From positions 8,294 to 46,953 of the forward strand of contig VBOT01000134.1 in assembly GCA_005893225.1 (NCBI GenBank): 38,660 nucleotides of DNA. The letters are read 5' to 3'. The DNA is from Candidatus Eiseniibacteriota bacterium. GTDB taxonomy: Bacteria > Eisenbacteria > RBG-16-71-46. The translations under genes and the position numbers were made by a program. Within the stretch, counting starts at the first letter, position 1; every line of letters starts with the position of its first letter. Below, in pieces: positions 2,121 through 26,439 of this stretch. Under the pieces are notes generated by a model. That model was not told the origin of the DNA. It was given only the letters and a program-made list of their open reading frames with translations, and did not search any database.

Positions 2121-2200
2121 CGGACCGCTGAAGGGCGCGCAACACCTTCAGGCCTTGACCTCGGCGCCTCCCCGTGTCAGCTTCAGCCCTCAGCAAGGCT
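2121..2200 (+). other. Short gap between pilX-like gene and T-box; hairpin, no clear promoter
   Basis: There is a perfect 7-bp inverted repeat CTGAAGG/CCTTCAG (2128-2134 and 2145-2151) just after the pilin stop. It lacks a T-tract and could be a weak end signal. A second stem, CCCCGT (2170-2175) with ACGGGG (2204-2209), overlaps the 5' base of T-box Stem I and could compete with it. TTGACC at 2155-2160 is a possible -35 box, but no convincing -10 follows, so the ileS promoter is not identified. Confidence 0.35.
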
Positions 2201-2478
2201 GTGACGGGGACGAGTAGGCGCGCGAGGCGTCCCAGCGAGCCGGGGACGGTGTGAGCCCGGCACCCACCCGCGCGCCGAAGATCACCCCCGAGCCGCCGAC
2301 CGAACGGCACCGGCACTAGTCGCCGCCCCAGTAGGCTCGGACGGATGCCCCCCGAGAGTGGGTCGGAGCCGGAGAGCCAACCGCGCTCCACGAGGCGGAG
2401 GCCGGCCTCCGCGAAGTTGGGTGGTACCGCGAAACCTTTCGCCCCAACGGTCAGAGAACCGCTGGGGCGCTTTTTTTT
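2201..2478 (+). promoter_or_regulatory. T-box leader RNA, Ile (AUC) specifier, controlling ileS
   Basis: Stem I is formed by an exact 8-bp helix GGCGCGCG (2217-2224) with CGCGCGCC (2269-2276). Below it is a specifier loop with GGACGAGUA on the 5' side (2208-2216) and GAAGATCA on the 3' side (2277-2284). AUC at 2281-2283 is the expected isoleucine specifier codon. The distal Stem I motifs CAGCGAGCCGGGG and GGUGUGAGCCCGG are present (2233-2260). The hallmark T-box GTTGGGTGGTACCGCG is at 2416-2431. Its UGGU bulge would pair with the ACCA end of an A73 tRNA, which fits tRNA-Ile. GUUGGG (2416-2421) can pair with CCCAAC (2443-2448) as antiterminator, and that right arm also forms the terminator's left arm. 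Uncharged tRNA-Ile should therefore turn ileS on. The base of Stem I near 2201-2209 is approximate. Confidence 0.93.
2440..2478 (+). terminator. Intrinsic terminator of the ileS T-box
   Basis: The arms CGCCCCAACGGT (2440-2451) and ACCGCTGGGGCG (2458-2469) pair with one A/C mismatch, and T8 follows at 2471-2478. The left arm overlaps the antiterminator pairing region of the T-box, so the two structures exclude each other. Confidence 0.93.
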
Positions 2479-2505: not shown

Positions 2506-5325
2506 ATGGCTGGCTATCGCGACACGCTAAACCTGCCCAAAACCGAGTTCCCCATGAAGGCCGACCTCCCCAGGCGCGAGCCCGAGCGGCTCGCGTGGTG
2601 GAATGAGCGCCAGCCGTATCGCGCGCTGCGCGAGCGCCGCCTTGGGGCTCGGGTGTGGCTGCTGCACGACGGCCCGCCCTACTCCAACGGCCACCTCCAC
2701 ATGGGAACCGCCGCCAACAAGATCTGGAAGGACGCCGCCGTGCGCGTGGCGAGCCTCATGGGTCACGACGCGCCGTACGTCCCGGGCTGGGACAACCACG
2801 GGATGCCGATCGAGGTCCAGGTGGGAAAGGAGATGCGTCACGCCGGCGGTGAGGTGGACCGCCTCGAGCTCAGGCGCCGCTGCCGCGAGTACGCGGCCCG
2901 CTGGGTCGCGATCCAGCGCGAGGAGTTCGAGCGGCTCGGCGTGTGGGGCGACTGGGACTCCCCCTACCTCACCATGGACCCCGGCTTCGAGGCCGCCATC
3001 CTGGAGGCGTTCGCCGGGCTGGCCGAGAAGGGCTTCGTGCAGCGAGGGCTGAGGTCGATTCACTGGTGCCCCACCGACCGCACCGCCCTGGCCGAGGCCG
3101 AGATCGAGTACCAGGACGATCCCTCCCCATCGATCTACGTCTCGTTCCCGCTGCGGAGCGATCCCCGGGGAGTGCTGCCCAAGGGCTCGCCGATCGCGGC
3201 CCTGGCGTGGACCACCACTCCCTGGACGCTGCCCGCGAACCTCGGCCTGATGGTGGATCCCGAGGCTCGCTACGCGGTCGTGGACAGCGGCAAGGGACGT
3301 TACCTGGTGGCCGAGGCCCGCCGGGCCGCGGTGGCGGAGGCGGCGGGCTGGCCCGCGGCGCAGGTCGACGCGGTGCTTTCAGGGCGCGCGCTCCTGGGCG
3401 TGGTGTTCGAGGGGCCGTGGGGAAACGATTCACCGGTGGTGGACGGGAGCCCTCACGTGAGCCTCGAGGACGGGACCGGGCTCGTGCACACCGCGCCCGG
3501 ACACGGCAAGGAGGACTTCAACGTCGGCCAGCGCGCCGGTCTCGCCGTGGTCTCTCCGGTCGACGAGGCGGGTCGCTTCACCGCCGGAGCGGAGCCGTTC
3601 GTGGGGCGCAGCGTGCTCGAGGTGAACGAGGACATCGTGGAATGGCTCCGCTCCCGCGGGCGTCTGGTGGCCTCGGGCACGCTGACCCACGCGTATCCGC
3701 ATTGCTGGCGGTGCCGCGGGCCGGTGATCTTCCGCGCCACGCGCCAGTGGTTCATGATCATCGACCACGACGGCCACCGCCAGCGCGCGCTCGACCTCAT
3801 CGAGACGGCGGTGCGCTGGGATCCGGCCACTTCCAAGAATCGCATCCGCGAGGCGGTGCGCTCGCGGCCCGACTGGTGCCTGTCCCGCCAGCGTTCGTGG
3901 GGGGTCGGGATCCCCGCCCTCTATTGCGAGGCCTGCGGGGCCGCCGCGCTCGTCCCCGAGGTGATGCATCGCGCCGCGGCGCTGACGCGCACCGGGGGTT
4001 CGGATGTCTGGTACGAGCTGCCGGTGGAGCGCTTTCTGCCCGAAGGATTCCACTGCCCCGACTGCGGCGCGCCGGGCCCATTCCGGAAGGAGACCGACAT
4101 CCTGGACGTGTGGTTCGACTCGGGATCGACCCATCTCGCCGTCCGCGCCACTCATCCCTCGCTGGCCGAGGCATGGGATCGCGCCCGCTCCGGAGGACGA
4201 GTCGTCTACTTCGAGGGCCCGGACCAGCATCGCGGGTGGTTCAACTCCTCCTTGATGGTGAGCGCTGGACTCACCGGAGGGGCGCCGTTCACCGACGTCC
4301 TCACCCACGGCTGGGTGCTGGATGCCGAGGGGCGGGCGATGCACAAGTCGCTCGGCAACGTCATCTCGCCGCTCGACGTGGTGCGGCGCTACGGCGCCGA
4401 CGTGGTGCGGTGGTGGGCGCTCGCCACCGACTGGAGGAGCGACGTGCGGGTCGGAGAGGAGACCCTCGAGCGCGTGGCGGAGGCCTACCGGAAGGTCCGC
4501 AACACCTTCCGCTTCCTGCTCGGGAACCTGTTCGACTTCACACCCGCCGATTCACTCCCGCGCGAGCGGCTCACCCGGTTGGACCGCGCTTTCGCCGACT
4601 ACGTGAGCTCGCGGGTCGCGCGGATGCGAGAGGAGTACGAGGCGCTCATGTTCCATCGCGCCCTGGACGCGCTGCTCGGGCTCTGCACGGTCGATCTCTC
4701 GGCCGTCTTCCTGGACCTGGCCGAGGACCGGCTCTACACCCTGGCCCCGGAGGACCCGCTGCGGCGATCGGCCCAGAGCGTGCTCTGGCAGGCTCTTCAA
4801 GACCTCGCGATCGCCGCCTCGCCGGCCCTGGCGTTCACGGCCGAGGAGGTGTGGCAGTCCCATCCCGGGCTCGCCGGCGAGGCGCCGAGCGTTCACCTGG
4901 CCCTCTGGCCCCAGCGCGCCCCCTCCCCCGCGGCGGAGGAGGAGTGGGCCCTCCTGCTGGGGGTCCGGGACCGGGTCAACGCGGCGCTCGAGCCGCTGCG
5001 GGCGGACCAGAAGATCGCCACCACGGCGGAGGCCGAGGTGGTGCTCCATGCCCCAGCCGACCTGGCGCGCCGGCTCGAGCCCTATCGCGACGAGCTGGCC
5101 TCGTTCCTGCTCGTCGCCGAGGCCCGGCTGGAGGCTGACGGGCGGTCCGAGCTGGAGGTGAGCCCCTCGCGCACGCGGCATCGCAAGTGCGCGCGGTGCT
5201 GGACCTATAGACCCGACGTGGCGGTCGACGGCCCGGAGGCCGGAATCTGCGGGCGCTGCACCGGTGCCCTGCGCTCGCGCCGGGAGGCGGCTTCGCGTCT
5301 CGGTCCGGGTGATCGCGGTCCCTAG
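2506..5325 (+). CDS. ileS: Isoleucyl-tRNA synthetase
   Basis: 939 residues, class I aminoacyl-tRNA synthetase that charges tRNA-Ile in the cytoplasm. The HIGH-type motif is GHLHMG (about residues 62-67), inside the family block DGPPYSNGHLHMG. The KMSKS loop reads AMHKS (residues 611-615), keeping the second Lys (K614). Internal CxxC pairs (HCWRC, YCEAC, HCPDC) and the block DILDVWFDSGSTH are present. A C-terminal zinc finger, C895/C898 and C915/C918, marks the bacterial-type IleS. The ATG at 2506 is chosen because GGAGAGGA (2494-2501) is a Shine-Dalgarno at proper distance; a GTG at 2491 in the same frame lies in that ribosome site. The gene lies 27 bp after the T-box terminator, so it is controlled by isoleucyl-tRNA charging. 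Confidence 0.97.
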   Translation: MAGYRDTLNLPKTEFPMKADLPRREPERLAWWNERQPYRALRERRLGARVWLLHDGPPYSNGHLHMGTAANKIWKDAAVRVASLMGHDAPYVPGWDNHGMPIEVQVGKEMRHAGGEVDRLELRRRCREYAARWVAIQREEFERLGVWGDWDSPYLTMDPGFEAAILEAFAGLAEKGFVQRGLRSIHWCPTDRTALAEAEIEYQDDPSPSIYVSFPLRSDPRGVLPKGSPIAALAWTTTPWTLPANLGLMVDPEARYAVVDSGKGRYLVAEARRAAVAEAAGWPAAQVDAVLSGRALLGVVFEGPWGNDSPVVDGSPHVSLEDGTGLVHTAPGHGKEDFNVGQRAGLAVVSPVDEAGRFTAGAEPFVGRSVLEVNEDIVEWLRSRGRLVASGTLTHAYPHCWRCRGPVIFRATRQWFMIIDHDGHRQRALDLIETAVRWDPATSKNRIREAVRSRPDWCLSRQRSWGVGIPALYCEACGAAALVPEVMHRAAALTRTGGSDVWYELPVERFLPEGFHCPDCGAPGPFRKETDILDVWFDSGSTHLAVRATHPSLAEAWDRARSGGRVVYFEGPDQHRGWFNSSLMVSAGLTGGAPFTDVLTHGWVLDAEGRAMHKSLGNVISPLDVVRRYGADVVRWWALATDWRSDVRVGEETLERVAEAYRKVRNTFRFLLGNLFDFTPADSLPRERLTRLDRAFADYVSSRVARMREEYEALMFHRALDALLGLCTVDLSAVFLDLAEDRLYTLAPEDPLRRSAQSVLWQALQDLAIAASPALAFTAEEVWQSHPGLAGEAPSVHLALWPQRAPSPAAEEEWALLLGVRDRVNAALEPLRADQKIATTAEAEVVLHAPADLARRLEPYRDELASFLLVAEARLEADGRSELEVSPSRTRHRKCARCWTYRPDVAVDGPEAGICGRCTGALRSRREAASRLGPGDRGP

Positions 5326-6451: not shown

Positions 6452-7849
6452 TCATGAGTCCTCGTCCGCCTCGTCCGGGGAAGGAGCGTCGGGGTGCCGG
6501 AAGCGGCCCGCGTCCAGCCCGTGCTTCCGCAGGAGGTCGTGGAACGTCGGGCGGCTGACGTCGATGTCGCGCGCCGCGCGGGTGATGTTCCCGGCGTTCC
6601 GGACCAGCGCGTCCTCGATCAACGAGCGCTCGGCCGTGTCCCGCGCGTCCTGCAGCGTGCGGGGCGTCTCGGCCGCTCCTTCCCCGAGCTCCAGGTCCTC
6701 CGGCCTCAGGTAGGCGTCCTGCGCCAGGATGACGGCGCGCTGGACCCGGTTCTCGAGCTCGCGGACGTTTCCCGGCCAGGGGTGAGCCTGGATGGCGCGC
6801 AGGCCGGACTGGGTGAACCCCTTGATCCGGCGCTTGTGATGGCGCGAATAGAACTCCAGGAAGTACTCCGCCAGGAGGCGGGTGTCGTCACCGCGCTCCC
6901 TGAGCGGCGGCACCTGAACCGTGACCACGCTGAGCCGGTAGAACAGATCCTCGCGGAACGTCCCGGCCGCCATCGCGCTCTTCAGGTCGTGGTTCGTGGC
7001 CGCCACCACCCGCACGTCGACGCGCTGCGCCTCGCGCCCCCCGATCCGCTCCACCTTGTGGTCCTGGAGGAAGCGCAGCAGCTTGACCTGGACGGGGGTC
7101 GGGATCTCGCCGATCTCGTCCAGGAACACCGTGCCGCCGGCGGCCACCTCGAGCTTGCCCTCCCGCATGCGGTGCGCGTCGGTGAACGATCCCCGCTCGT
7201 GACCGAACAGCTCGCTCTCAAGCAAGGTCTCGGGGATCGCCCCGCAGTTGATCGGGACGAAGGGGCCCTCGCGGTGGGAGCTGGCCTGGTGGATCGCGTG
7301 CGCGACCAACTCCTTGCCGGTGCCGTTCTCCCCCAGGATCAGCACCGTGGCGTCGGTCGGGGCCACGCGCTGGACCAGCGAGAAGACCTTGCGGATCGCG
7401 AGCGACTCCCCCACCAGCCGGTGGTATCGCTTCCGGCCGCTCGCCGGCTCGGGCGAGGCCTCCTCGATGCGGCGGATGTGGAGCGCCCGCCGCAGGATCA
7501 TCTTGAGCTCGGCGAGCTCGATCGGCTTGGCGTACCAGTCCACCGCCCCGCGCCGGATCGCGAGCAGCGCGTTCTCGCGACTCTCGTTCCCCGTCACCAT
7601 CACGACCTTGGCGAGCGGGTGCTGGTCGACGATCTCGTCCAGGAGGAGCAGGCCCTCGTCCTGGGGAGCGCCCGGCGGGCTGAGCGCGACGTCCAGCGTC
7701 ACGAGGCTCGGACGCTGCTCGCGCAGCAGGCGCCTCGCCTCGGCGGCGTTGGCGGCGCACACCACCTCGAACTCGTCCGCGAGCCCCCACTTGAGCTGGT
7801 TGCGGATCGACTCCTCGTCGTCGACGATCAGGACCTTCTCGACGCTCAT
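6452..7849 (-). CDS. prsR: PrsR-like response regulator, NtrC-type (exosortase/PEP-CTERM system)
   Basis: 465 residues. The N-terminal receiver has the acidic pair D10/D11, phospho-acceptor D53 (VTLDVA) and K108 (AKP). The AAA+ domain carries Walker A GENGTGKE (173-180) and Walker B VFLDEIGE (241-248). The C-terminal Fis-type helix-turn-helix is ARDIDVSRPTFHDLLRKHG. The order REC-AAA-HTH and the pairing with PrsK fit the PEP-CTERM-box regulator PrsR. The sigma54-contact loop is GSFTDA (220-225) instead of GAFTGA, which may weaken or change contact with sigma54. The ATG (7847-7849) overlaps the prsK stop by 4 bp, so the pair is translationally coupled. In related systems this regulator controls genes for exosortase substrates; that role is inferred here. 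Confidence 0.88.
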   Translation of the reverse strand: MSVEKVLIVDDEESIRNQLKWGLADEFEVVCAANAAEARRLLREQRPSLVTLDVALSPPGAPQDEGLLLLDEIVDQHPLAKVVMVTGNESRENALLAIRRGAVDWYAKPIELAELKMILRRALHIRRIEEASPEPASGRKRYHRLVGESLAIRKVFSLVQRVAPTDATVLILGENGTGKELVAHAIHQASSHREGPFVPINCGAIPETLLESELFGHERGSFTDAHRMREGKLEVAAGGTVFLDEIGEIPTPVQVKLLRFLQDHKVERIGGREAQRVDVRVVAATNHDLKSAMAAGTFREDLFYRLSVVTVQVPPLRERGDDTRLLAEYFLEFYSRHHKRRIKGFTQSGLRAIQAHPWPGNVRELENRVQRAVILAQDAYLRPEDLELGEGAAETPRTLQDARDTAERSLIEDALVRNAGNITRAARDIDVSRPTFHDLLRKHGLDAGRFRHPDAPSPDEADEDS

Positions 7850-10044
7850 CCCGCGACCTCCCGCGCCACCGCCGGGGGCGGCGCGGCGTCCCTCTCGGCC
7901 TCGCCGCGCGAGCGCGCCGGCACCGGCACACGGACCCGGAACGTGGTGCCGCGACCGGCGCGGCGCTCGACCGCGATCGTGCCGCCGTGGGCCTCGACGA
8001 TAGCCTTGCACTGCGCGAGCCCCACCCCGAGGCCCTCGGCCTTGGTGGTGGCGAAGGGCTTGAACAGCGAGGTGCGGATGAACTCCTCGCTCATGCCGCG
8101 GCCGTTGTCGATCACCGACAGGGTGAGCGTGCCCGGCCCCTCCGGGCGCCGCCGCATCAGCTCGGCCTCGACCTCGATCTCCCCGCTCTCGCTCACCGCC
8201 TCGCGGGCGTTGGTGAGCAGGTTGACCATCACCCTCAACATCAGGCGGCGGTCGACCCGCACCCGCTCCCGGACGTTGCACAGCACGTCGAGGCGAACCC
8301 CGTCGCGCTCGCCCAGCGACAGGCCGGTGGCGGTGACGGCCTCGTCGAGCATCTCCGCGAGGTCGCAGGGCTCGGGCCGCACTTCGGGGGGCCGCGCCAC
8401 GCTCGCGACCTGGCTCATCAGCTCCCTCAGGTTCGCCACCGTGCGCTCGATGACCGCCATGGCGTCGCGCTGGAAGTCGGGGTTGGCGAGGTGGCGGCGC
8501 GCGTTCTCCACCACCAGCGACAGGCCCGACACCTGGTTCTTGATGTCGTGCAGCACGAAGCTCGACAGCCGGTGCAGCGACTCGAGCTGGCGGGTCTCCG
8601 CCAGGATCTCGGCCTGGCGCGCGAACCACAGCGCGGCCGCGAGCTGGCGCGCCATCGCCCCGAGGAATTCCACGTCCTCGTAGGAGTAGTCCTCGTCGTT
8701 GCCCTTGTCGGAGAGCCACAGCAGGCCCACCAGCATCCCGCCGACCGAGAGCGGCGCGCACACCGCCGCGGACAGCGCCTCGATGGTGGTGCGGTTCTCG
8801 ACCACCACCGGGATGAGATCGATGTCGCGCGACACCTCGGCGAACACCAGCGGGACGCGGGAGCGCTCCAGCTCGACGGCCAGGGCGTTGTCGGGCGCCA
8901 CTTCCTCCGGCATCGCGGGCGGGCCGTGGACCCTGCGGAACGGTCCGCCGCCCTCCTCGCGCAGGTAGACGGCCGCCCGCTCGGCGTCGAACACCGCGCA
9001 CACCAGCTTCTCGATCTGGTGGCAGATGTCCTCGGGACGCGCGGTGGGGGTGATCGAGTTGCTGACCCGCTCCCATTCCCGGCGGTAGTCGTACCGGTTG
9101 GCGTAGAAGTTCCGGTCGACGAAGCGCTTGACCGCGCGGTTGGCGCGCGGGCTGAGGGTGAGGACGAACCCTCCCCCGCCCGCGAGCAGGTAGAACCCCA
9201 CGCTCACGATGCGCTTCCACTCCGGGGTGAGAGCCGGCAGGATCTTGGACAGCACCGCCATGGTGAGCAGGAAGGCGCCGGCGATGGTGAGCGAGACCGA
9301 GGAGTAGTAGATCACCGGGCGCGCCATCGGAACGCTCACGTCCGAGAGCCGGCGCCGCGCCAGCGCCAGGGCCGTGACCACGCCCGAGATGAACATCGGG
9401 ACCGCGCTCGCCACCATCCAGGTGGCCCGGATGCCCCCGTAGAGGAGCCCGGCCGAGACCACCAGCAACTCGCTCAGGATCGCGGCCAGGAACGCCAGGA
9501 ACATCGGGCGCAGCCGGCGCTGAGCGGAGGCCTGGGCGGCTCTCAGCATGCGCTCGAGGTTCATGAGCACCGCCACCATCACCACCACCAGGTACATCAG
9601 GTAGACCTTGCCCATGGTGCCGAACACCACCAAGGACTGGCCGCCCGAGCCGGCCACCTCGCGCACCACGTAGGGCGAGCCCGCCGCCGCGCTCATCGCC
9701 AGGCACCCGATCAGCGCGAGCGCCAGGTAGGCGCCAGCGTTCCGGATCTCCGGCCAGGGCTCGGAGCGCGCCAGCACCACGCTCAGGGTGAGCCACAGCC
9801 AGGAGGCCAGCGAGGAGGTGCGTGCCAGGTAGATCGCCCAGTCGCGCGCCGCCCCCGGAGAGCCGGCGTTCAGGATCCCCAGCGTGCCGGCCTGGAAGGC
9901 CGCCATCGTCAGGAACGAGGCGGCGAACACCAGGGTGGTGAGCCAGTGCCCGCGGCGCAGGGTGGCGAGGAGGCCGATCATGGCGGCGAGCAGCGCGCTC
10001 GCCATCACGATGCTGGCTTCGAACGGAGAACCCGTGATGCCCAC
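7846..10044 (-). CDS. prsK: PrsK-like membrane sensor histidine kinase
   Basis: 732 residues. About eight hydrophobic helices fill the first 300 residues, a GAF domain covers about 330-475, and a histidine kinase core follows. The H-box is FVLHDIKNQ with H499, the N-box LLTNAREAV has N612, and the ATP lid contains DNGRG (646-650) and GLGVGLAQCK (671-680). The architecture (multi-pass membrane domain, GAF, HisKA/HATPase) and the downstream PrsR match the exosortase-associated kinase PrsK. The start is GTG 10042-10044 with AGGAG 6-7 bases upstream, 34 bp after the stop of the TPR lipoprotein gene. The signal it senses is unknown. Confidence 0.88.
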   Translation of the reverse strand: MGITGSPFEASIVMASALLAAMIGLLATLRRGHWLTTLVFAASFLTMAAFQAGTLGILNAGSPGAARDWAIYLARTSSLASWLWLTLSVVLARSEPWPEIRNAGAYLALALIGCLAMSAAAGSPYVVREVAGSGGQSLVVFGTMGKVYLMYLVVVMVAVLMNLERMLRAAQASAQRRLRPMFLAFLAAILSELLVVSAGLLYGGIRATWMVASAVPMFISGVVTALALARRRLSDVSVPMARPVIYYSSVSLTIAGAFLLTMAVLSKILPALTPEWKRIVSVGFYLLAGGGGFVLTLSPRANRAVKRFVDRNFYANRYDYRREWERVSNSITPTARPEDICHQIEKLVCAVFDAERAAVYLREEGGGPFRRVHGPPAMPEEVAPDNALAVELERSRVPLVFAEVSRDIDLIPVVVENRTTIEALSAAVCAPLSVGGMLVGLLWLSDKGNDEDYSYEDVEFLGAMARQLAAALWFARQAEILAETRQLESLHRLSSFVLHDIKNQVSGLSLVVENARRHLANPDFQRDAMAVIERTVANLRELMSQVASVARPPEVRPEPCDLAEMLDEAVTATGLSLGERDGVRLDVLCNVRERVRVDRRLMLRVMVNLLTNAREAVSESGEIEVEAELMRRRPEGPGTLTLSVIDNGRGMSEEFIRTSLFKPFATTKAEGLGVGLAQCKAIVEAHGGTIAVERRAGRGTTFRVRVPVPARSRGEAERDAAPPPAVAREVAG

Positions 10045-12432: not shown

Positions 12433-13067
12433 CGGCGCTCCACCGCGACTGCGGCCGCGAAGGCGATCGAAAGGCCGCCGGCCACTCGGGTCGCGAAGTC
12501 GTCGAGCCGCGCCGCGGCGGTGGTCTCGCCCTCGCCGCCGACCGGCGTCTCCACGCGGACCTGGGTTCCCCACGAGCGATTGTCCAGCGCCCCCTCGAGC
12601 GCCATGCGCCGCCGGAACTCGGCCCCATCGGCGGTCGCGTACCCGCCCGTGCTCCACCAGTAGTAGACCAGGCGCCGGTCGCGCCCGCGGCTCGCGACGA
12701 ATCGATTCGCCTCGAGGGCCGCCGGCCCACCGCCCACCCGTCCCACTCCGCGATCCTCGAGCAGATAGCCCTGCGACTCGTAGCAGAGTCTCGGATCATG
12801 GGCGCCGTAGCGCCGGTGGCGATGGTAGACGACGCACAGCCACGCCACGTCGTCGCCCCGGCGGTAGCGCCGCACCAGCAGGTCATCGGCTTTGAGCTCA
12901 TCGATCACCGCGTTCTCGAAGGAGAGGTCGGTGCCGTTCCACAGTCCGAACGTGGCCGGGCAGGCGGCGAGCCATCCGCGCCCGACCGCCAGGTTCGACG
13001 GCGGATGGAGCTGGACGTAGACCGCGGTGGCGAGGAGCAAAGCCCCGGTGGCGACGAAGCGGGTCAC
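12429..13067 (-). CDS. epsI: EpsI-like exosortase-associated protein
   Basis: 212 residues: one N-terminal hydrophobic segment (FVATGALLLATAVYVQL), then a soluble domain with WNGTDLSFENAVIDELKADD, YHRHRRYGAHDPRLCYESQGY and VYYWWSTGGYATADG. The order (LSF/ENAVIDELKAD, HDPRLCYESQGY, YWW) matches the EpsI/DUF3485 family that accompanies exosortases, either as a separate protein or as a fused domain. The start is GTG 13065-13067, overlapping the exosortase stop by 4 bp. Its biochemical job is not established; it is thought to assist exopolysaccharide production or exosortase function. Confidence 0.85.
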   Translation of the reverse strand: MTRFVATGALLLATAVYVQLHPPSNLAVGRGWLAACPATFGLWNGTDLSFENAVIDELKADDLLVRRYRRGDDVAWLCVVYHRHRRYGAHDPRLCYESQGYLLEDRGVGRVGGGPAALEANRFVASRGRDRRLVYYWWSTGGYATADGAEFRRRMALEGALDNRSWGTQVRVETPVGGEGETTAAARLDDFATRVAGGLSIAFAAAVAVERR

Positions 13068-13981
13068 GGGCCGTCCCCCTTCGCTCCGGCCGCGGCGGGG
13101 CGAGGGGCGGCGCCGCCGAGCGCCGCGCGCACCGCGAAGAGCCCGAGGATGGCGAGCACGTAGACCATGTAGCCCGAGCCGTCGTGGAACGGGCCGGTGG
13201 CGACCGCGACGCCGGCGTAGTGCCCGACCAGGAGGAGCGCGGTCAGGCGGATCGCGTTCGAGGCCACCGCGATCGGTATCGCCGCCGCGACCAGGCACGC
13301 CCGCCGCCACCACGCCCCGGGCTGGAAGAACGCGAACGCCGCCCCGGTGGCCAGGAGCGCCAGCAGCGACCTGAGCCCGCTGCAGGGATTGTCGACGCGG
13401 AGAGCGCCACTCGCGAGATAGACCGTCATGCCGCGGCGCTGGAACGTCACTCCCAGGGCCTCGGCGGCGTGCGTCGCCAGGCGGACCGCGATCTCCTTGA
13501 GCGCGTAGCTGAGCTGCTGGATCACCACCGGCGGGAAGGTGAGCATGAACGCCAGGTAGGCGATCGGGAACGCCAGCCGCCGCGTCCAGGCCCCGCCGAG
13601 GAACACCAGCGCCAGCCCGTAGAGCATGAGGATCAGCGAGTAGCCCTGCAGGGCGAACACGTCGGCCCGGAGCCCCGCCACCTCGAGGAGGCAGGCCGCC
13701 GCCACGAGCCCGATGCCCCGTGCATCCGGGCGGACCGGCGTGTCGCGCAGCCGGGCGCGCATCGACCACACCATCCCCAGGGCCGCCACGGGAACGAGCG
13801 GGCCGTGCGAGTAGTTGTCGTTGGTGGTCCAGGTGGCCCACAGCACCGCCGCCGTGCGCCCGTAGATGGCGGCGAGGAGCCCCAGCAGGGCCGCGCCCTG
13901 GATCGCGGGCGCGGGGTGGGAACTCCCCGCCCGAAGCGCTTCGAGCGGCCGAGGGGCGGTGGTCTCCAGCCCTTCAGCCAT
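13064..13981 (-). CDS. Exosortase (Xrt family membrane transpeptidase-like protease)
   Basis: 305 residues, about eight transmembrane helices. The three invariant family residues are visible: C200 in DNPCSGLRS, R245 in SNAIRLTALL, and H266 in GPFHDGSGY. Exosortases cut C-terminal PEP-CTERM-type tails (signature, transmembrane helix, basic end) from secreted proteins, probably joining them to a cell-surface acceptor. The NDNYSHGPLVP block near residue 54 is also typical. The ATG (13979-13981) shares the ATGA overlap with the preceding glycosyltransferase gene. Neighbouring EpsI, PrsK and PrsR suggest the XrtA type. No tailed substrate protein is encoded in the window. Confidence 0.92.
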   Translation of the reverse strand: MAEGLETTAPRPLEALRAGSSHPAPAIQGAALLGLLAAIYGRTAAVLWATWTTNDNYSHGPLVPVAALGMVWSMRARLRDTPVRPDARGIGLVAAACLLEVAGLRADVFALQGYSLILMLYGLALVFLGGAWTRRLAFPIAYLAFMLTFPPVVIQQLSYALKEIAVRLATHAAEALGVTFQRRGMTVYLASGALRVDNPCSGLRSLLALLATGAAFAFFQPGAWWRRACLVAAAIPIAVASNAIRLTALLLVGHYAGVAVATGPFHDGSGYMVYVLAILGLFAVRAALGGAAPRPAAAGAKGDGP

Positions 13982-15792
13982 CAGTAGACGCCTCGATTCG
14001 AGAACAGGGTGATCACGGTCCTGAGCAGGATCATGAGGTCCAGCACCGGCGAGAGGTGCTCCAGGTAATATCGGTCGTATTCCACCTTGCGTTGCAGCGG
14101 AATCTCGTCGCGCCCGTTGACCTGGGCCAGCCCCGTCACCCCGGGCCGGAGCGCGTCCACGCCGGCGGCCTGGCGCAGCCCGATCAGGTCCTCCTGGTTG
14201 AACAGCGCGGGCCTCGGGCCCACTAGCGTCATGTCGCCGGCCAGCACGTTCAGGAGCTGGGGCAGCTCGTCCAGGCTGGTGCGCCTCAGGAATCTCCCGA
14301 TCCGGGTCACGCGGCTCGAGCCCGGGCCCACGAGGTGCGAGGCGAGATCGGGAGTGCCGACCCGCATGGTGCGGAACTTGAGGATGGTGAACTCCTTCGA
14401 GCCGCGCCCCACGCGGCGCTGGCGAAACAGGGCGGGGCCCGGCGAGTCGAGCGGGATCGCGAGCCCGAGGAGGAGCAAGACCGGCGCGAGCGCCACCACC
14501 ATGCCCGCCGCCACGATCACGTCGGCCAGCCGTCTCGCGATTCCATGGAGCCCCCCGGGCAGCGGCGTCACCGCGCGCCCCCGCGCCCGCACGTGCACTT
14601 CGTCGAGCAGCCGCGCCAGCTCCTCGCCGGTCGCGCGCCGCGAGTAGTGCTGCTCGACGAACTCCGGCCCCGAGCCTTCCAGGCGCGAGCGCAGCGCGGA
14701 ATCCGAGGCCAGCCGCTCGATCGCGCCCGCGATGGCGCGCCCGTCGCCGGGCTCCACCACGATCCCTCCGCCGGAGCGATTCACCACCTCGGCCGCATCG
14801 CCGCTCACCGCCGCCACCACCGGTCGCCCGCACGCCAGGTAGTCGAACAGCTTGACCGGGATGGTCTCGCCGCAGAACGCACCGGCCCGCGTGGTCGCCA
14901 CGCACACGTCGGCCTCCCGGATCACGTCCACCAGGCCCTCGGGGGACAGGCTGGGGCGGAAGGCCACGTGGCAGAGCCCCGCCTCCTCGGCGCGGCGCTC
15001 GAGCGCGGGCTTGGCCACGCCGTCCCCCACCAGGACGAACGCCACGTCGTCGCGACCCTTGAGGCTCTCCGCCGCATCGATCAGCGCCTCCATGCCGTGG
15101 ACCAGGCCGTGGGTCCCGGCGTAGAGCACCGTGAACGGACGCCGCGCGGCGCCGTTCCGCCCGCGGCCGGGGCGGAAGAGGTCGGTGTCGGCGCCGTTGG
15201 TGATGAGTGCCAAGCGCCCGCCGTCGAGTCCGCGGGCCTCGAGCTGGCGGCGCATGCCCGGCGTGACGGCGATCACGCGCGCGGCGCGGCGCTGCAGGAA
15301 CCACGACAGCCCCTCCAGGGCCCAGGTCACCGGTCCGGGCCGGAGCTCCCCCAGGGCCACCGCCGCTCGCGGCCAGTCGTCGCGGCAGTCCAGCACCAGC
15401 GGCGCGCGGTGGCGGCGCGCGGCGAGCCACGCCGTGATCCCGAGGAAGAGCGGAGGCGTGCTCGCGATCACGAGGTCGGGCCGCGGTCCGGAGAGCGCCA
15501 CCGGGAGAGCCGACCAGGCGAAGGTGAGGTGGTTCCAGAGCCTCGTCACCGCGGTCTTCCGCGGCGTGGCGTGGAGCCAGACGCGCTCGACCGTGATGCC
15601 GCCGCGGCGCTCGGTGGCGCGGCGGACCCTCGCGTACTCGGGCCGGATCGCTCCCGAGGGATGGTTCGGGAGCCCGGTCAGCACCCGCACCTCGTGGCCC
15701 GCTCGCTCGAGCGCGCGGGCGAAGTGCGCCGCGCGCGCCGGGGCGGCCCCCGACTCGGGCGGGAAGTACTGGGTCACGAACAGGACGCGCAT
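13981..15792 (-). CDS. Fused GT4 glycosyltransferase and phosphoglycosyl transferase
   Basis: 603 residues with two enzymes in one chain. Residues 1-400 are a GT-B glycosyltransferase of the WbuB-like GT4 family (VTQYFPPESGAAPAR, GDGVAKPALER, GETIPVKLFDYLACGRP). Residues 415-603 are a monotopic phosphoglycosyl transferase: membrane segment 421-445, KFRTMR at 472, catalytic pair D508-E509 in TSLDELPQLLNVL, and VGPRP. The PGT would put the first sugar phosphate on undecaprenyl phosphate, and the GT4 half would plausibly add the second sugar. The start ATG is 15790-15792, chosen at the true GT N-terminus. The gap to the methyltransferase gene is 17 bp. Confidence 0.9.
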   Translation of the reverse strand: MRVLFVTQYFPPESGAAPARAAHFARALERAGHEVRVLTGLPNHPSGAIRPEYARVRRATERRGGITVERVWLHATPRKTAVTRLWNHLTFAWSALPVALSGPRPDLVIASTPPLFLGITAWLAARRHRAPLVLDCRDDWPRAAVALGELRPGPVTWALEGLSWFLQRRAARVIAVTPGMRRQLEARGLDGGRLALITNGADTDLFRPGRGRNGAARRPFTVLYAGTHGLVHGMEALIDAAESLKGRDDVAFVLVGDGVAKPALERRAEEAGLCHVAFRPSLSPEGLVDVIREADVCVATTRAGAFCGETIPVKLFDYLACGRPVVAAVSGDAAEVVNRSGGGIVVEPGDGRAIAGAIERLASDSALRSRLEGSGPEFVEQHYSRRATGEELARLLDEVHVRARGRAVTPLPGGLHGIARRLADVIVAAGMVVALAPVLLLLGLAIPLDSPGPALFRQRRVGRGSKEFTILKFRTMRVGTPDLASHLVGPGSSRVTRIGRFLRRTSLDELPQLLNVLAGDMTLVGPRPALFNQEDLIGLRQAAGVDALRPGVTGLAQVNGRDEIPLQRKVEYDRYYLEHLSPVLDLMILLRTVITLFSNRGVY

Positions 15793-15809
15793 CGGGATGC
15801 GAGCGAGGC

Positions 15810-16745
15810 TCAGCCGCGCCGGACCAGGGTCAGGCCTGGCGAAACACTCGCGGCCGGAGTCGCCACCATGAGTTGCCGCCGCGCCGAGGAGCCCCCCAGC
15901 CACCACTGACGCTGGAGCGGAGCGAGGAGCCCCGCGTAGAGGGCATCGGGCACGACACCCAGCCCGCCCCAGTAGAGCTCGTGGTGCAACACGCGGAATC
16001 CCGCGCGCACCATGATCTGCCTGAGCTCACCGGGAGGGAACGGACGCTCGACGGCGTAGGCGTGGCGCTCGCCGTCGGGCGCCACGTACTCCTGGTGCAC
16101 CGCGGTGCGCACGCTCTCGAGCTTCTTCAGATGGGCCGGGTTGCTCCCGTTGATGTCGCCGACCACCAGCACGCCGCCCGGACGCAGGTGGGCGCGGACC
16201 GCGGCCAGGAACTCCTCCAGCGGATCGATGTGGGAGAGCGCGTTGTAGACCCAGACCAGGTCGTAACCGCGTTCCCAGCGACGGGTGAGGTCCGCTCGCT
16301 CGTAGCGCACGGGCAGGGCCTGCCCGCTCCGCGCCGCATGGAAGGCCAGACGGCGCGCGGCGGCGCTCAGGCGGTCGGGCCTCAGGTCGACTCCGATCAC
16401 CTCGGCGCCGATCGCCGCGTAGAGCATCGAGTAGGTCCCGAAGCCCGAGCCCGCGTCCAGCACCCGCACGTCGGGGAACCGCTCCAGCCGCGCGGCGATC
16501 CAGCGCGCCGTCCACCCCGCCTCGCCACGCCACATCCCGCGCAGGTAACGGGCGAGGGCGGGCTCGTCGCCCGCCGCCGGCAGGTTGCGGTAGTAGGCCT
16601 GGAACGCTTCGCGCTCGCCCGGCGGGATGAATCCCGGGGCGGCGGGGAGCTCTTCCTCGATCGTCCACCGGACGAACCGCTCGAACGACTCTCGCGCCGG
16701 CCCCCTCGGGGGCCTCGGCGCCATGTCATGGACCGTCACCGTCAC
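15810..16745 (-). CDS. Class I SAM-dependent methyltransferase
   Basis: 311 residues. Motif I is VLDAGSGFGTYS, with the acidic loop VIGVDLRPDRLSAAARR. Later motifs are YDLVWVYNALSHIDPLEEF and LRPGGVLVVGDI, all typical of Rossmann-fold methyltransferases. The start is GTG 16743-16745, because AAAGGAG lies 7 bases upstream. It is separated from the upstream GT4 by 60 bp, the largest gap within the operon body. The substrate cannot be read from sequence; by context it probably methylates a sugar or a precursor of the exopolysaccharide. Confidence 0.82.
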   Translation of the reverse strand: MTVTVHDMAPRPPRGPARESFERFVRWTIEEELPAAPGFIPPGEREAFQAYYRNLPAAGDEPALARYLRGMWRGEAGWTARWIAARLERFPDVRVLDAGSGFGTYSMLYAAIGAEVIGVDLRPDRLSAAARRLAFHAARSGQALPVRYERADLTRRWERGYDLVWVYNALSHIDPLEEFLAAVRAHLRPGGVLVVGDINGSNPAHLKKLESVRTAVHQEYVAPDGERHAYAVERPFPPGELRQIMVRAGFRVLHHELYWGGLGVVPDALYAGLLAPLQRQWWLGGSSARRQLMVATPAASVSPGLTLVRRG

Positions 16746-16805
16746 GAGCACACTCCTTTGCGCCGCGCCCGAGAGCGCGCCCAAACGCCGAACTGCCCAC
16801 CTGGA

Positions 16806-17969
16806 TCAAGCCGACGCACGTCCCTCTCCCGCTCGCCGCCCGGCGGGCAGCCGCGCCCCGCGGGCGCGGAGCTCGGCCCGGTAGAGCGCCTCGGTCTCGC
16901 TCACCATCCGCTCGGCGGTGAAGCACCGGGCCCAGCGCTCGCGCCCGGCGGCTCCCAGCGCCCGCGCGCGAACGGGATCCGAGAGCAGCTCCAGGAGCGC
17001 CTGGCCGAGCGCCACGGGCTCGCCGGGCGGGACGATGCGCCCCGTCACTCCGTCCTCGATCGCCTCCCGGGCCCCGCCCACGTGGGTCGCCACCGCCGGA
17101 CAGCCGGCTCGCATCGCCTCGAGCAAGGTGATCGGCAGCCCCTCTCGAACCGACGACAGCGCGAAGAGGTCCGCGGCTTGGACCAGATCGGCCACGTCCG
17201 CGCGGGGGCCGAGGAAACGCACCCGGTCGCCGGCTCCGGAGGCGCGCGCGCGCGACTCGAGCGCGGCCTGAAGCGGGCCCTCGCCCGCGATCAGGAGCCG
17301 GGCTCCGGGAACCCGGGGATGGAGCCAGGCGAACGCGTCGATCAGGACGTGCTGCGCCTTCTGCGGGGTCAGGCTCGCGATGGTGAGCACCACGCGATCT
17401 CCCTCCGCGATGCCCAGCTCGTTCCGCACCGCCTCGCGCGCCCGCGCGGCCCGCGCCTGCGATATCCCGTTCGCGATCGTCACGAAGCGGGACTCGGCCC
17501 AGCGAAGGCGCACGGCGTGGCTCTCTCGCACCGCCTCGCACACACCGATCACGCGCCGGGTGAGGAGCGTCACGAGCGGCTCGATGAGCGACGGATAGAG
17601 CGCCGAGTGCCGGCCGCGGTAGTGGATGCTGTGCTCGGTGCGGACGACGACCGGGACTCCCGCGAGCTTCCCGGCCAGGGCCGCGTAGAGGCCCCCGGTC
17701 GGGTTGTGGCCGTTCGCCACCGCCACGCGCTCGGACCTCATCAGACGCGCGAGCTGGATCAGGCGGCTCAGCCGGTCCGGGGCGTCGCCGAGCACGAAGG
17801 TGCGCGCGCCGAGTGCCTCGGCGGCCTCCATCGCCGGGCCGCCGCGATTCAGCGCGCAGACCAGGCTTTCGACCCCCGCCCCCGCGTGCCGGACGTGCTC
17901 CACCACCAGGGTCTCGGCGCCTCCCTGGTGCATCGCCTCCACCACGTGCAGGACGCGGAGCGCGCTCAT
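16806..17969 (-). CDS. GT4-family glycosyltransferase
   Basis: 387 residues, GT-B fold. The N-terminal half has VLHVVEAMHQGGAETLV and a TEHSIHYRG segment. The C-terminal nucleotide-sugar half has TIASLTPQKAQHVLIDAF, IAGEGPLQAAL and the retaining E-x7-E motif (EGLPITLLEAMRAGCPAVATHVGG). ATG 17967-17969 overlaps the previous stop by 4 bp (ATGA). It would transfer a sugar from a nucleotide donor to the lipid-linked exopolysaccharide repeat on the cytoplasmic face. Donor and acceptor are unknown. Confidence 0.88.
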   Translation of the reverse strand: MSALRVLHVVEAMHQGGAETLVVEHVRHAGAGVESLVCALNRGGPAMEAAEALGARTFVLGDAPDRLSRLIQLARLMRSERVAVANGHNPTGGLYAALAGKLAGVPVVVRTEHSIHYRGRHSALYPSLIEPLVTLLTRRVIGVCEAVRESHAVRLRWAESRFVTIANGISQARAARAREAVRNELGIAEGDRVVLTIASLTPQKAQHVLIDAFAWLHPRVPGARLLIAGEGPLQAALESRARASGAGDRVRFLGPRADVADLVQAADLFALSSVREGLPITLLEAMRAGCPAVATHVGGAREAIEDGVTGRIVPPGEPVALGQALLELLSDPVRARALGAAGRERWARCFTAERMVSETEALYRAELRARGARLPAGRRAGEGRASA

Positions 17970-19210
17970 CCGGCTTCCGCCCGGACCTCGGGCTCGCCCG
18001 CTCCCGGCCCGTCCTGGTTGAACAATGACAGCAGCCGCTCGAAGCTCGGCGCGGTGTCGAACCGCTGGGCGACGCGCGCGCGCGCCCGGCTCCCCATCGC
18101 GTCGAGTTCCTCGGGATGGGCGAGCAGCCGCTCGAGCGCGTCGGCCAGGCTCTCGGGGTCGCCGGGATCGCACAGCGCCCCGGTCTCGCCCGGCACGATC
18201 GCCTCCTCGAGCCCGGCTGCGCGCGTGCCCACGCACGGCAGCCCCATCGCCATCGCCTCGGTCACGACGTTGGGGATCCCGTCGCGCCGCCCGTTCTTGA
18301 GCTCGACGCTCGGCGCCACCAGGAGCCACGCTCGCCGGTAGAAGGGAAGCAACTCCTCGCGGGTGATCGATCCGGCGAACCAGACGCGCGCCTCGACGCC
18401 GAGCTCCCGGGCCAGCGCCTCGAGCCGCCCGCGCTCGGGGCCATCCCCCACCAGGACCAGCCGCGGCGCGCGCGCGCGGCGGCCGAGAATCGAGAGAGCG
18501 CGCACCGCGTCGCCGAAGCCCTTGGTGGGAGCCAGGCGCCCGACGGTGAGCAGCAGCGGCTCCGGGTCTCGCCGCCTTCCCTGGCCATCGAAGCGCTCGA
18601 GGTCCACGCCGTGATAGATCCACTCCACGCGCGCCCGCGGGCCGCCGAGGATCTGCAGCATCTCGGCATTGCTCCGGACGCAGGCGGTGACGAACTCGGC
18701 GGCGCGCACCTTCTCGGCCAGGAACGCCTGGGTCCGGTAGAGATCTCCACCCGCGTGGCCCGCGAGGCTCAGCGGGCGGCCGGTGAGGCGCGACGCCAGG
18801 TAAGCGACGCTGCCCGGGAAGTGAGCCCAGGCACCGTGGACCCGCTGGAGATCCTCCCGCTCGAGGAGGAGCGCCGCCTCGGCCGCGGCGGGCAGGTAGG
18901 CGAGGTGCCCCGCCAGCGCGTAGAGGCTGCGGCGCGACGCCCACAGCATGCGGGCGGCCTCGGGCACGAGCACCTGCGGGCGGCGTATCAGCCAGTAAGC
19001 GAGCGCCGCCCAGGCCCCCGGGGAGAGCGGATTCCCGATGCGGCGGGTGAGAAAGGCCAGGGGGGCGTGCTCGGGCTGGTACTCGCGCCCGACCGGCCGG
19101 AGCGTCAGCACCCGCACCCGGACGCCGCGCCGGACCAGGCGGTGAACCTCGTTCTCGAGGAACCAGGCGAGGGTCGGGAAGGTGGTGGTGATGTAGGCGA
19201 CCGATTCCAT
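17966..19210 (-). CDS. GT4-family glycosyltransferase (WcaL-like)
   Basis: 414 residues. It starts with VAYITTTFPTLAWFLENEV, the N-terminal pattern of colanic-acid-type WcaL glycosyltransferases, and has a HAWA-type GAWAHFP region. The donor domain shows VGRLAPTKGFGDAVRAL, VGDGPERGRLEAL and the E-x7-E region in DGIPNVVTEAMAMGLPCVGT. ATG 19208-19210 shares one base with the preceding TGA. Three GT4 genes stand in a row here (16806-20328), so the repeat unit contains at least several different sugars. Confidence 0.88.
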   Translation of the reverse strand: MESVAYITTTFPTLAWFLENEVHRLVRRGVRVRVLTLRPVGREYQPEHAPLAFLTRRIGNPLSPGAWAALAYWLIRRPQVLVPEAARMLWASRRSLYALAGHLAYLPAAAEAALLLEREDLQRVHGAWAHFPGSVAYLASRLTGRPLSLAGHAGGDLYRTQAFLAEKVRAAEFVTACVRSNAEMLQILGGPRARVEWIYHGVDLERFDGQGRRRDPEPLLLTVGRLAPTKGFGDAVRALSILGRRARAPRLVLVGDGPERGRLEALARELGVEARVWFAGSITREELLPFYRRAWLLVAPSVELKNGRRDGIPNVVTEAMAMGLPCVGTRAAGLEEAIVPGETGALCDPGDPESLADALERLLAHPEELDAMGSRARARVAQRFDTAPSFERLLSLFNQDGPGAGEPEVRAEAG

Positions 19211-20328
19211 CAGGGCTCCGTCACTCGCCGGTAGAACTCCTCGTGCCGGCGTACCATCCGATCGATGCCGAAGGACTCGAAGGCCCGCTGCCGCGCGGCC
19301 TCGCCGCGGCGACGGGCCTCGTCGGGACGGGCGATCGCATCCTCCAGGGCCCCGGCGAGGAGCTCGGGCGAGCCGGGCGGAACGAGCCATCCGGTCTCGC
19401 CGCCGGTCATCACCTCGGAGGTCCCGCCGACATCGGTGGCCACCGAGGGGCGGCCGGCCGCCATGGCCTCGAGCAGGGCGTTGGGGATTCCTTCCTCGCG
19501 CGAGGAGAGGACGAACACGTCCATGCCGGGGAGCAAGCGCTCCACGTCGTTCCGCTCGCCGAGGAAGCCGACGCGGCCCTCGAGACCGAGGTCGCGGGCG
19601 CGTGCCTCGAGCCCGGGACGCTCCGGACCCTCGCCCACGAGCACGGCGCGGAAGTGGCACCCGCGCCCGGCCAGGAGCGCCAGCGCCTCGAGCAGGGTCG
19701 CGTGATCCTTGCGCGGCGCGAGGCACCCTACGGTGCCGACCACGACCCCGTTCCCGTTCGCGTCGGTCCGCGAGCGGGCGGGCGGTGCGGCGAAGCGCGA
19801 GAGGTCCACGCCGTTCGGGATCACGGTCACCCGCTCGCGCGCGGCTCCCAGCGCCACGGCGGTCTCCGCCACGGCGTGGCTCACCGCCGTGACGTGGGTG
19901 GCGAGCCGGTGCGAGAGACGCTGCACGGCAACCTGGCGCGGGGTCTCGAAGGCGTCGACGTTGCGCTTGGCGATCACGACCGCCGGCACTCCGGTGAGCC
20001 GGCCGGCCAGCGCCGCGTAGAGGTTCGGTCCGAAGAGGTAGCCGTGGACGACGTGGGGACGGAAATCCAGGATCAGGCGGCAGAGGCGCAGGAGGCCGAA
20101 CAGGCCGGAAACGCTCGCCAGACGCCGCCCCACCGCGAGATCGTGCACCGGCCAGCCGAGGGCCAGGACCTCGTCCAGGAACTGGCCTTCGCGGCGGAAG
20201 CAGGCGATCGCGACGTCGAACCCCCCGCGGTCGAGGCGGCTCCAGAGCTCGAGCAGGTGGCGCTCGGCTCCGCCGGCGACGAAGTTGCCAACCACGTAGA
20301 GAACGCGGATGCGCCCCGAGGGCTTCAC
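19210..20328 (-). CDS. GT4-family glycosyltransferase
   Basis: 372 residues. The N-terminus VLYVVGNFVAGGAERHLLEL is the common GT4 acceptor-domain start. VVGTVGCLAPRKDHATLLEAL, LVGEGPERPGLEA and the E-x7-E motif in EEGIPNALLEAMAAGRPSVA follow. The GTG start (20326-20328) overlaps the deacetylase stop by 4 bp. The predicted action is transfer of a sugar to the lipid-linked glycan in the cytoplasm. The precise linkage is unknown. Confidence 0.88.
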   Translation of the reverse strand: MKPSGRIRVLYVVGNFVAGGAERHLLELWSRLDRGGFDVAIACFRREGQFLDEVLALGWPVHDLAVGRRLASVSGLFGLLRLCRLILDFRPHVVHGYLFGPNLYAALAGRLTGVPAVVIAKRNVDAFETPRQVAVQRLSHRLATHVTAVSHAVAETAVALGAARERVTVIPNGVDLSRFAAPPARSRTDANGNGVVVGTVGCLAPRKDHATLLEALALLAGRGCHFRAVLVGEGPERPGLEARARDLGLEGRVGFLGERNDVERLLPGMDVFVLSSREEGIPNALLEAMAAGRPSVATDVGGTSEVMTGGETGWLVPPGSPELLAGALEDAIARPDEARRRGEAARQRAFESFGIDRMVRRHEEFYRRVTEP

Positions 20329-21341
20329 GTCCCCACCTCCACGCCGCGCATGCGATCGAAGGCCCCGTCCAGCTCGGCGATCGCGAGGCGGCGCGAGAAG
20401 CGTCCCGAGGGACCGAGGCACGCGCCCTCCGAGAGCCCGCGGCGCCTGAGCTCGAAGGGACGGTCGTCGGGCCGGTTGATTCCCGCGCGGGTCGTGACGG
20501 CGTAATCGAGGCCCGAGGCCTCGACGATCTCGAGGGTGCGGGCGTCGTGATCTCCCCCGGGATAGGCGAGCCCGGTGGGGCGAACGCCGAGGCGGCGCTC
20601 GATCAGCTCCACCGAGCCCGCGACCTCGCGGCGCTGCTCGGCGGGCGAGAGGAGGCTCAGGAACGGATGGTCGAGCGTGTGGGCTCCGACCTCCATCCCC
20701 GATCGAACCAGGGCCGCGGCCGACTCCCACGGGGCGAGCTCGCAGGGAGCTTCCCCGACCTCCAGCCGGCCGGCGATCTCGGCTAGCCGGCGCTCGCGCT
20801 CGACGGGGTGGACCCGCAGCTCGGGCACGAGGCGCGCGAGAGCGCTCACGCGCTCCGATCGCGTGCGGAGCGGCAGGGCGAGCTGCATCTCGCCCACGGT
20901 CCACTCCAGCAGGTCGCGGCGCGTGTGCTCGAGGGCGTGAGCGAGCGAGTCCCACCAGGGCGCCAAACGGCGCTCGATCAATCCGGCCGTGAGGTAGAAG
21001 GTCGCCCTTCCCCCGCTCGCCTCGAGCAGCGGCAGCGCCCGCTCTACGTTGTCGAGGTAGCCGTCGTCGAACGTCAGCGCCACCCATGACCCGGGCTCCC
21101 CCTCCCGGAGTCGGCGCCAGCCCTCGGCCACCGTCACCGGCGTGAGCCCCAGCTCTCCCAGGAGCGCGAGCTGAGCGGCGAGCACCGGCTCGCCGACGCC
21201 CAGCCGGTAGAGCGGCCGAGCGCCCGCGGCGTAGACGCGATGGTGCCGGATGATGGTGAGCCGGCCCCGCGCCCCGCCGGGCTCCTGGACCGCGGCGCGA
21301 TGGGCCAGGCTCAGCAGCCATCGCAGCGCGCGCCCGCTCAC
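20325..21341 (-). CDS. Polysaccharide deacetylase (NodB-homology, CE4)
   Basis: 338 residues. The metal-binding and catalytic motifs are visible: TFDDGYLDN (D92/D93), HTLDHP (H221 and H225), and GLAYPGGDHDARTL. The early RHHRV segment is common in this family. About 120 residues separate the first two motifs, longer than in minimal NodB domains, so an insertion of unknown role is present. The GTG start at 21339-21341 overlaps the previous stop by 4 bp. No signal peptide is evident, so it may act on the lipid-linked unit inside the cell or be exported otherwise. It probably removes acetyl groups from amino sugars of the exopolysaccharide. Confidence 0.87.
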   Translation of the reverse strand: MSGRALRWLLSLAHRAAVQEPGGARGRLTIIRHHRVYAAGARPLYRLGVGEPVLAAQLALLGELGLTPVTVAEGWRRLREGEPGSWVALTFDDGYLDNVERALPLLEASGGRATFYLTAGLIERRLAPWWDSLAHALEHTRRDLLEWTVGEMQLALPLRTRSERVSALARLVPELRVHPVERERRLAEIAGRLEVGEAPCELAPWESAAALVRSGMEVGAHTLDHPFLSLLSPAEQRREVAGSVELIERRLGVRPTGLAYPGGDHDARTLEIVEASGLDYAVTTRAGINRPDDRPFELRRRGLSEGACLGPSGRFSRRLAIAELDGAFDRMRGVEVGT

Positions 21342-22804: not shown

Positions 22805-23817
22805 GGCCTCCTCCCCGAGCCGCCGGGTGCCCCCTGGAGCGCCACCCGGCGCACGCGCGCCATGGGTGCCGCGAGCTCCCGCTTGGCCCAGCCGCGACCG
22901 CGCACCCACTCGAGGAGCGGGCGCGGCAGGAAGCTCGCGAGCCAGAGGAGCAGGACCTGGCCGGCGCGCTCCGGAAACATCCAGCCGCGGCACACCCGAC
23001 GCCGCGCCTCGGTGCTCCTCCCCTCGCGCAACGAGACCATCGCGAGCTTGAAGTGAGCCAGCGCCTCGCGGCGCCGCGCCCGCCTTCTCAGGGCCGGCGT
23101 GAGCGAGGCGTCCGAGGCCAGGCGGTGGAAGAGGTCCACGTCGCCTCCGAGCCGCGACTCGACCTGGCGCGTCAGGCCCCCGGGCCGATGCTGGTAGCGC
23201 ACCAGCGGGCGGCGCGAGGCGGTGGCCTTGGAGCGGCGGCTCATCCGGATCCAGAGGTCCAGGTCCTCGGCGTGGGTCATCCGCTCCTGGAACCCGCCCA
23301 GCTCCTCGAGCAGATCCCGCCGCGCCACCACCGACGAGGTGAGGATGAAGTTCACCTCGAAGAGCTCGGCGAGGGGCTGGCCCACGTACGGCTCCGGAAG
23401 GTCGGCGTAGGCGGCCAGCCACGAGTCCCGAAGCTCCCCCTCGAGGCTGCGGAAGGAGCCGTCGCTGAAGAACCACGCCGCCTCGGGGGCGCGCGCCAGG
23501 CACTGGGCCGCCGTGGCGAGCTTCTCCGGGAACCACAGATCGTCGGCGTCCAGGAAGGCGATCCAGGGCGCCGAGGCGGCGCGCCAGCCGGCGTTGCGCG
23601 CCGCCCCGGCGCTGCCGCACGAGCGCTCGAGGATGGTCACGCGATCGCCGAAACGCGCCCGGACGGCGGCGGCCGTGCCGTCGCGCGAGCCGTCGTCGAC
23701 CAGCACCACCTGCTCGGGCCCGAGCGTCTGCTCGAGCGCCGAGGCCACGGCGTCCAGGACGTCGGGCAGCCCGTCACGGGCCGGGATGACGGCCGCCACG
23801 CGGAAGCCGGAGCTCAT
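22801..23817 (-). CDS. GT2-family glycosyltransferase
   Basis: 338 residues, GT-A fold: VAAVIPARDGLPDVLDAV, LVDDGSRDGT, GAARNAGWRAA, and the metal-binding FLDADDLWFPEKL. AEDLDLWIRMSR supplies the likely catalytic acid region. The last 100 residues are helical and Arg-rich. ATG 23815-23817 overlaps the preceding stop by 4 bp. It is a paralogue of the next GT2 upstream (23814-24809); both share DADD.WFP.KL, SDG and L(R)(D/E)SWL. It would add one sugar to the exopolysaccharide repeat. Confidence 0.88.
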   Translation of the reverse strand: MSSGFRVAAVIPARDGLPDVLDAVASALEQTLGPEQVVLVDDGSRDGTAAAVRARFGDRVTILERSCGSAGAARNAGWRAASAPWIAFLDADDLWFPEKLATAAQCLARAPEAAWFFSDGSFRSLEGELRDSWLAAYADLPEPYVGQPLAELFEVNFILTSSVVARRDLLEELGGFQERMTHAEDLDLWIRMSRRSKATASRRPLVRYQHRPGGLTRQVESRLGGDVDLFHRLASDASLTPALRRRARRREALAHFKLAMVSLREGRSTEARRRVCRGWMFPERAGQVLLLWLASFLPRPLLEWVRGRGWAKRELAAPMARVRRVALQGAPGGSGRRP

Positions 23818-26410: not shown

Positions 26411-26439
26411 GAACCGGGCCAGGGAGCCCGCTTGGGACG

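Follow-up and report, generated by a model that had tools for sequence, protein, structure and literature searches.

The leader at positions 2192-2478 of the window (the whole 38,660-nucleotide stretch of Candidatus Eiseniibacteriota contig VBOT01000134.1 that was analysed) is very probably a class I, or transcriptional, isoleucine T-box riboswitch, and its sequence predicts that it switches the ileS gene that follows. The first-pass annotation had described a complete isoleucine T-box in front of ileS, and all of the parts that it listed were located, with the specifier exactly where it had been placed. The extent proposed there, from 2201, denotes the same element, the real start of which lies a few bases earlier, at 2192-2195. 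The "class II" label has to be replaced, as a long Stem I together with a terminator is class I in the terms of TBDB, which uses class I for transcriptional and class II for translational T-boxes (PMC7778990). The features of the leader and gene are given in Table 1.

Table 1. Features of the ileS leader and gene, in window coordinates
Feature	Position	Strand	Sequence or remark	Basis
Likely promoter	2155..2183	+	TTGACC 2155-2160, 17-nt spacer, CAGCTT 2178-2183	By eye
T-box leader	2192..2449	+		RF00230 match end to end; family Stem I model
Stem I	2195..2294	+	K-turn GGC-UGU-GA / GA-GCC	Alignment of 13 leaders and covariation
GAGTA (AGUA) box in Stem I	inside 2209-2217	+		Sequence
AG bulge in Stem I	2231-2244	+	AGCGAG strand	Sequence
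Distal loop	2248-2255	+	GGUGUGAG, site also given as GGTGTGAG	Sequence
Specifier (isoleucine)	2281..2283	+	AUC, in GAAGAUCACC	Sequence
Stem II and Stem IIA/B region	2292..2366	+	S-turn strands (GAA ... AGUA)	RF00230 alignment, positions
Stem III region	2392..2415	+	Purine flanks	RF00230 alignment; conservation in alignment of relatives
Antiterminator	2416..2448	+	A1 GUUGGG/CCCAAC, A2 GCGAAA/UUUCGC	-11.2 kcal/mol
T-box bulge	2422-2428	+	UGGUACC (TGGTACC), in GTTGGG-TGGTACC-GCGAAA; UGGU 2422-2425	
Intrinsic terminator	2440..2478	+	Arms 2440-2451 and 2458-2469	-19.8 kcal/mol
Terminator U8 (T8)	2471-2478	+		Sequence
ileS	2506..5325	+	Bacterial-type IleRS1, 939 aa, C-terminal Cys4 motif	TIGR00392, translation

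Stem I of the window T-box is about 100 nt long, and the AUC specifier agrees with the identity of the downstream gene. The antiterminator and the terminator are mutually exclusive, as the arm at 2440-2448 is common to both. A simple terminator scan missed the terminator because its stem is interrupted. The end of the T-box lies 27 bases before the ileS ATG, with the ribosome site of the gene near 2493-2501, downstream of the U8 terminator. A consensus promoter scan gave no score for the element that we take to be the promoter; a TTGAC followed by a CANNNT-like hexamer was seen upstream of the T-box in most of the relatives' leaders.

The identity of the leader was assessed with covariance models. 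When positions 2050-2600 of the window were scanned against all 4227 Rfam families, the T-box model RF00230 aligned end to end (model 1-219) to 2192-2449 on the forward strand, with 61.5 bits and an E-value of 5.5e-13. This match, the check that the first-pass annotation had named for its own reading, is significant, although it lies below the RF00230 gathering score of 93, and a default, gathering-score Rfam scan of the window therefore gave no match. The low score is explained by the G+C-rich stems of this leader, and GC-rich T-boxes in general can fall below the Rfam cut-off and be missed by standard annotation. A Stem I model built from 13 leaders of the window's own family (f1) scored the window T-box at 109.7 bits. 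A weak match to the Rfam family NsiR1 at 2422-2476 reflected only the terminator hairpin. The single-strand folding energy of the leader was ordinary compared with shuffled sequences (z -0.63); the evidence for a T-box therefore comes from homology and covariation and not from stability.

Thirteen f1 leaders, from the window and 12 relatives, were aligned to examine conservation and covariation. Stem I contained 46 invariant columns, and its K-turn, AGUA box, AG bulge and distal loop were invariant or nearly so. Standard pairs made up 93.2% of Stem I pairs, compared with only 29-48% in slid control versions; 8 of the 24 pairs had changed on both sides, and none of 500 shuffles reached the observed covariation score. 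In the antiterminator (A1/A2), 99.2% of pairs were standard and 4 of 11 had changed on both sides. The specifier read AUC in 12 of the 13 aptamers. In the leaders that were folded, an arm of the antiterminator (-11 to -17 kcal/mol) also formed part of a more stable hairpin (-19 to -61 kcal/mol). The T-box is therefore not a chance resemblance: the same element, with covariation, stands before the same gene in the window and in 12 relatives. As the f1-only Stem I model also matched ileS leaders from other organisms, 17 in number and almost all from Bacillota, the f1 element is homologous to known isoleucine T-boxes.

In the established T-box mechanism, uncharged tRNA stabilises the antiterminator (review PMC7583486), and the window T-box most likely works in this ordinary way. 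As judged from the promoter recognised by eye, the transcript would begin near 2190, at the base of Stem I. Stem I would read the anticodon of tRNA-Ile(GAU) through the AUC specifier, and its distal loops would grip the tRNA elbow. If the tRNA were uncharged, its 3' NCCA end would pair with UGGU, the antiterminator would be held and polymerase would read through into ileS; if it carried isoleucine, the more stable terminator would form and ileS would be off. A gene for tRNA-Ile(GAU) was not found in the window's assembly, nor was that assembly's own 16S rRNA. Neither a tRNA-Ile pattern search in 15 genomes nor a tRNA-Ile DNA query in two (G001 and G018) found one, and there was no tRNA-Ile among the 30 of 39 tRNAs that could be typed in an all-tRNA search of G008.

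The distribution of the T-box was determined in a sample of 47 genomes of the phylum. RF00230 matched 10 of these (window included), all in f1. With the f1 Stem I model, 13 f1 genomes gave a single site each, and the 27 genomes from outside f1 gave none. The contig of another f1 genome, G016, begins inside the leader with the antiterminator present, giving 14 f1 genomes with T-box sequence before ileS. Wherever it could be read out in f1, the T-box lay directly before ileS, at one per genome. No further T-box, as might have stood before the other synthetase genes that the first-pass annotation had proposed to examine, came out of these genome searches. No plasmid record was similar to the locus. 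We found no earlier report of a T-box in Eisenbacteria, although absence from the literature that was searched is weak evidence; the present data add this candidate phylum to the T-box range.

The synthetase downstream of the T-box also sets f1 apart. The IleRS of the window scored 761 bits against TIGR00392 of NCBIfam (cut-off 621) and only 244 against MupA, whereas the IleRS of G020, from the sister family f2 of the same order, scored 810 bits against MupA and 792 against MupB. By the IleRS1 and IleRS2 distinction of PMC4861432, the window enzyme is of type 1 and that of G020 of type 2; this is the only enzyme typed directly as IleRS2, the other families being assigned from their similarly low identity and their length. 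Readable f1 enzymes were 64-76% identical to that of the window, and the best matches in other families were mostly 29-35% identical. No clear IleRS emerged from six genomes (G005, G010, G011, G034, G035 and G046), which leaves the survey of types incomplete. When f1 genomes were searched with the IleRS2 of G020, only the IleRS1 locus matched, with no second enzyme. As the T-box occurs in a single family, and that family has a distinct IleRS type, a joint gain is the more economical account, and we consider it likely from these sequence comparisons that the f1 ancestor acquired the T-box and an IleRS1-type ileS together, replacing the IleRS2 type of the other families.

An IleRS tree was used to examine the source of the f1 enzyme. 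As the first-pass annotation had proposed, ileS was placed in a phylogeny, where f1 grouped with Armatimonadota, TA06 and WOR-3 (support 99) rather than with Bacillota. Within this group f1 adjoined an Armatimonadetes sequence (L013), a pairing with support of only about 30. An origin from Bacillota was disfavoured but not rejected, the constraint costing 43.5 log units (p-AU 0.0504). Alternatively, the ancestor of Eisenbacteria might have had both ileS1 and the T-box, with the other families later swapping their IleRS. Vertical retention of this kind would fit the presence of T-boxes in deep lineages such as Armatimonadota and the long, isolated f1 IleRS1 branch, which has no close donor. However, the distant type occurs in the sister family f2 and in most of the other families whose IleRS could be read, so that several replacements would be needed. 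Moreover, the one IleRS1-like enzyme elsewhere, that of G036 in family f11, was rejected as a partner of the f1 enzymes (p-AU 0.0027), and the G036 genome had no T-box match. We therefore regard vertical retention as rather unlikely. Of the two origins offered in the first-pass annotation, ancient or transferred, the second is thus favoured by the restriction of the T-box to a family with a different IleRS type, and the first less so.

Several relatives had altered leaders. In three sister genera (G004, L094; G012, L105; G007, L210) the promoter and a terminator-like hairpin were kept upstream of ileS but the aptamer was absent, and the models found nothing beyond noise in these leaders. The aptamer is therefore dispensable in f1. 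Because a constraint uniting these genera into a single clade of the IleRS tree was rejected (p-AU 0.011), the aptamer was probably lost at least twice, provided that the assemblies are correct. The leader before ileS in G002 (L106, 1200-1299) had AAC in place of the AUC specifier and GC instead of GA in a K-turn strand. UGGC replaced UGGU in four others (G008, G015, G018 and G019; loci L097, L099, L100 and L104); it would fail to pair with the usual A73 and would pair with a G discriminator. We see about an even chance that these observations add up to a single history, in which a single-T-box regulon was gained with IleRS1 in one Eisenbacteria family and the aptamer was later lost at least twice, the promoter and terminator persisting as a fixed attenuator before an essential gene. 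Whatever its course, f1 provides leaders that are intact, altered or devoid of the aptamer, all in front of one essential gene, useful for following the gain of a riboswitch with its gene and then its loss.

The same leaders bear on whether the window T-box still responds to tRNA. The aptamer-less genera and the changed specifier and K-turn strand of G002 would be expected if the T-box had decayed, with the fold remaining but the switch unresponsive and the terminator setting only a basal level. In the window, however, every motif is intact and the U8 is the longest U tract of the set, and pairs are preserved by double changes in the relatives; decay of the window T-box is thus very unlikely. 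Control of translation, by a class II T-box with a 3' hairpin that hides the ribosome site, might be suspected from G015 (L099) and G017 (L101), where the hairpins at the terminator site (-56 and -61 kcal/mol) lack a U tract and might work at the level of translation or terminate transcription in some other manner. For the window itself we give this reading hardly any weight, as its hairpin ends in U8 upstream of the ribosome site and its Stem I is long, unlike that of class II elements. Ribosome-mediated attenuation through a leader peptide with isoleucine codons can be practically dismissed: a terminator does precede an isoleucine-related gene and short ORFs occur by chance, but an ORF with a run of isoleucine codons was looked for in the leader and none was found, and the T-box motifs and covariation account for the leader.

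We compared the predicted class I T-box with known systems. Bacillota ileS T-boxes (for example those of Desulfovirgula, Syntrophomonas and Neobacillus; L017, L044 and L075) are likewise class I elements before ileS, and the Eisenbacteria model matched their Stem I at 27-48 bits; the two Bacillota genomes checked had 10-12 T-box matches each, compared with one in an Eisenbacteria genome. T-boxes related to ileS have been described in Deinococcus radiodurans and Dehalococcoides (PMC2494555). Likened by description rather than by sequence, these share with the present case a link to isoleucine-tRNA ligase outside Firmicutes, but they belong to other phyla and number two or three per genome. In Armatimonadetes UWMA-0252 (L013), a T-box (leader match 39.4 bits, E 1.2e-7) precedes the IleRS1 that is most similar outside Eisenbacteria (49%) and belongs to the same tree group; as its contig begins inside the leader, the comparison excludes Stem I. 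T-box matches numbered two and three per genome in the Armatimonadota G059 (L013) and G063 (L018), respectively. The translational, class II ileS T-boxes of actinobacteria (Mycobacterium and Nocardia; PMC7583486, PMC7778990) have the same isoleucine specificity and a Stem II with S-turn and IIA/B, but combine a short Stem I with a sequestrator, whereas in the window T-box a long Stem I is paired with a terminator. The emphasis of the first-pass annotation on an ileS T-box in a non-Firmicute must accordingly be moderated, since D. radiodurans, Dehalococcoides and, here, Armatimonadota have them too. With isoleucine T-boxes already known outside Firmicutes (PMC2494555), the link between this T-box and a changed IleRS type, together with the recurrent aptamer loss, is of greater interest.

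The lineage itself had been read correctly from the envelope genes as diderm and not Firmicute. In a search for IleRS homologues, the nearest relatives bearing a name were Candidatus Eisenbacteria nzgw207 and WS_11; the leader of nzgw207 matches that of G017, a member of f1. The PilX, exosortase, O-antigen ligase, Wzz and Poly_export/SLBB domains encoded in the window are consistent with a diderm. The window also has an exopolysaccharide cluster on the reverse strand (13064-31775), with exosortase EpsH, glycosyltransferases, O-antigen ligase, Wzz/GNVR and Poly_export/SLBB, near which lies a gene for a sigma-54 activator (6452-9796).
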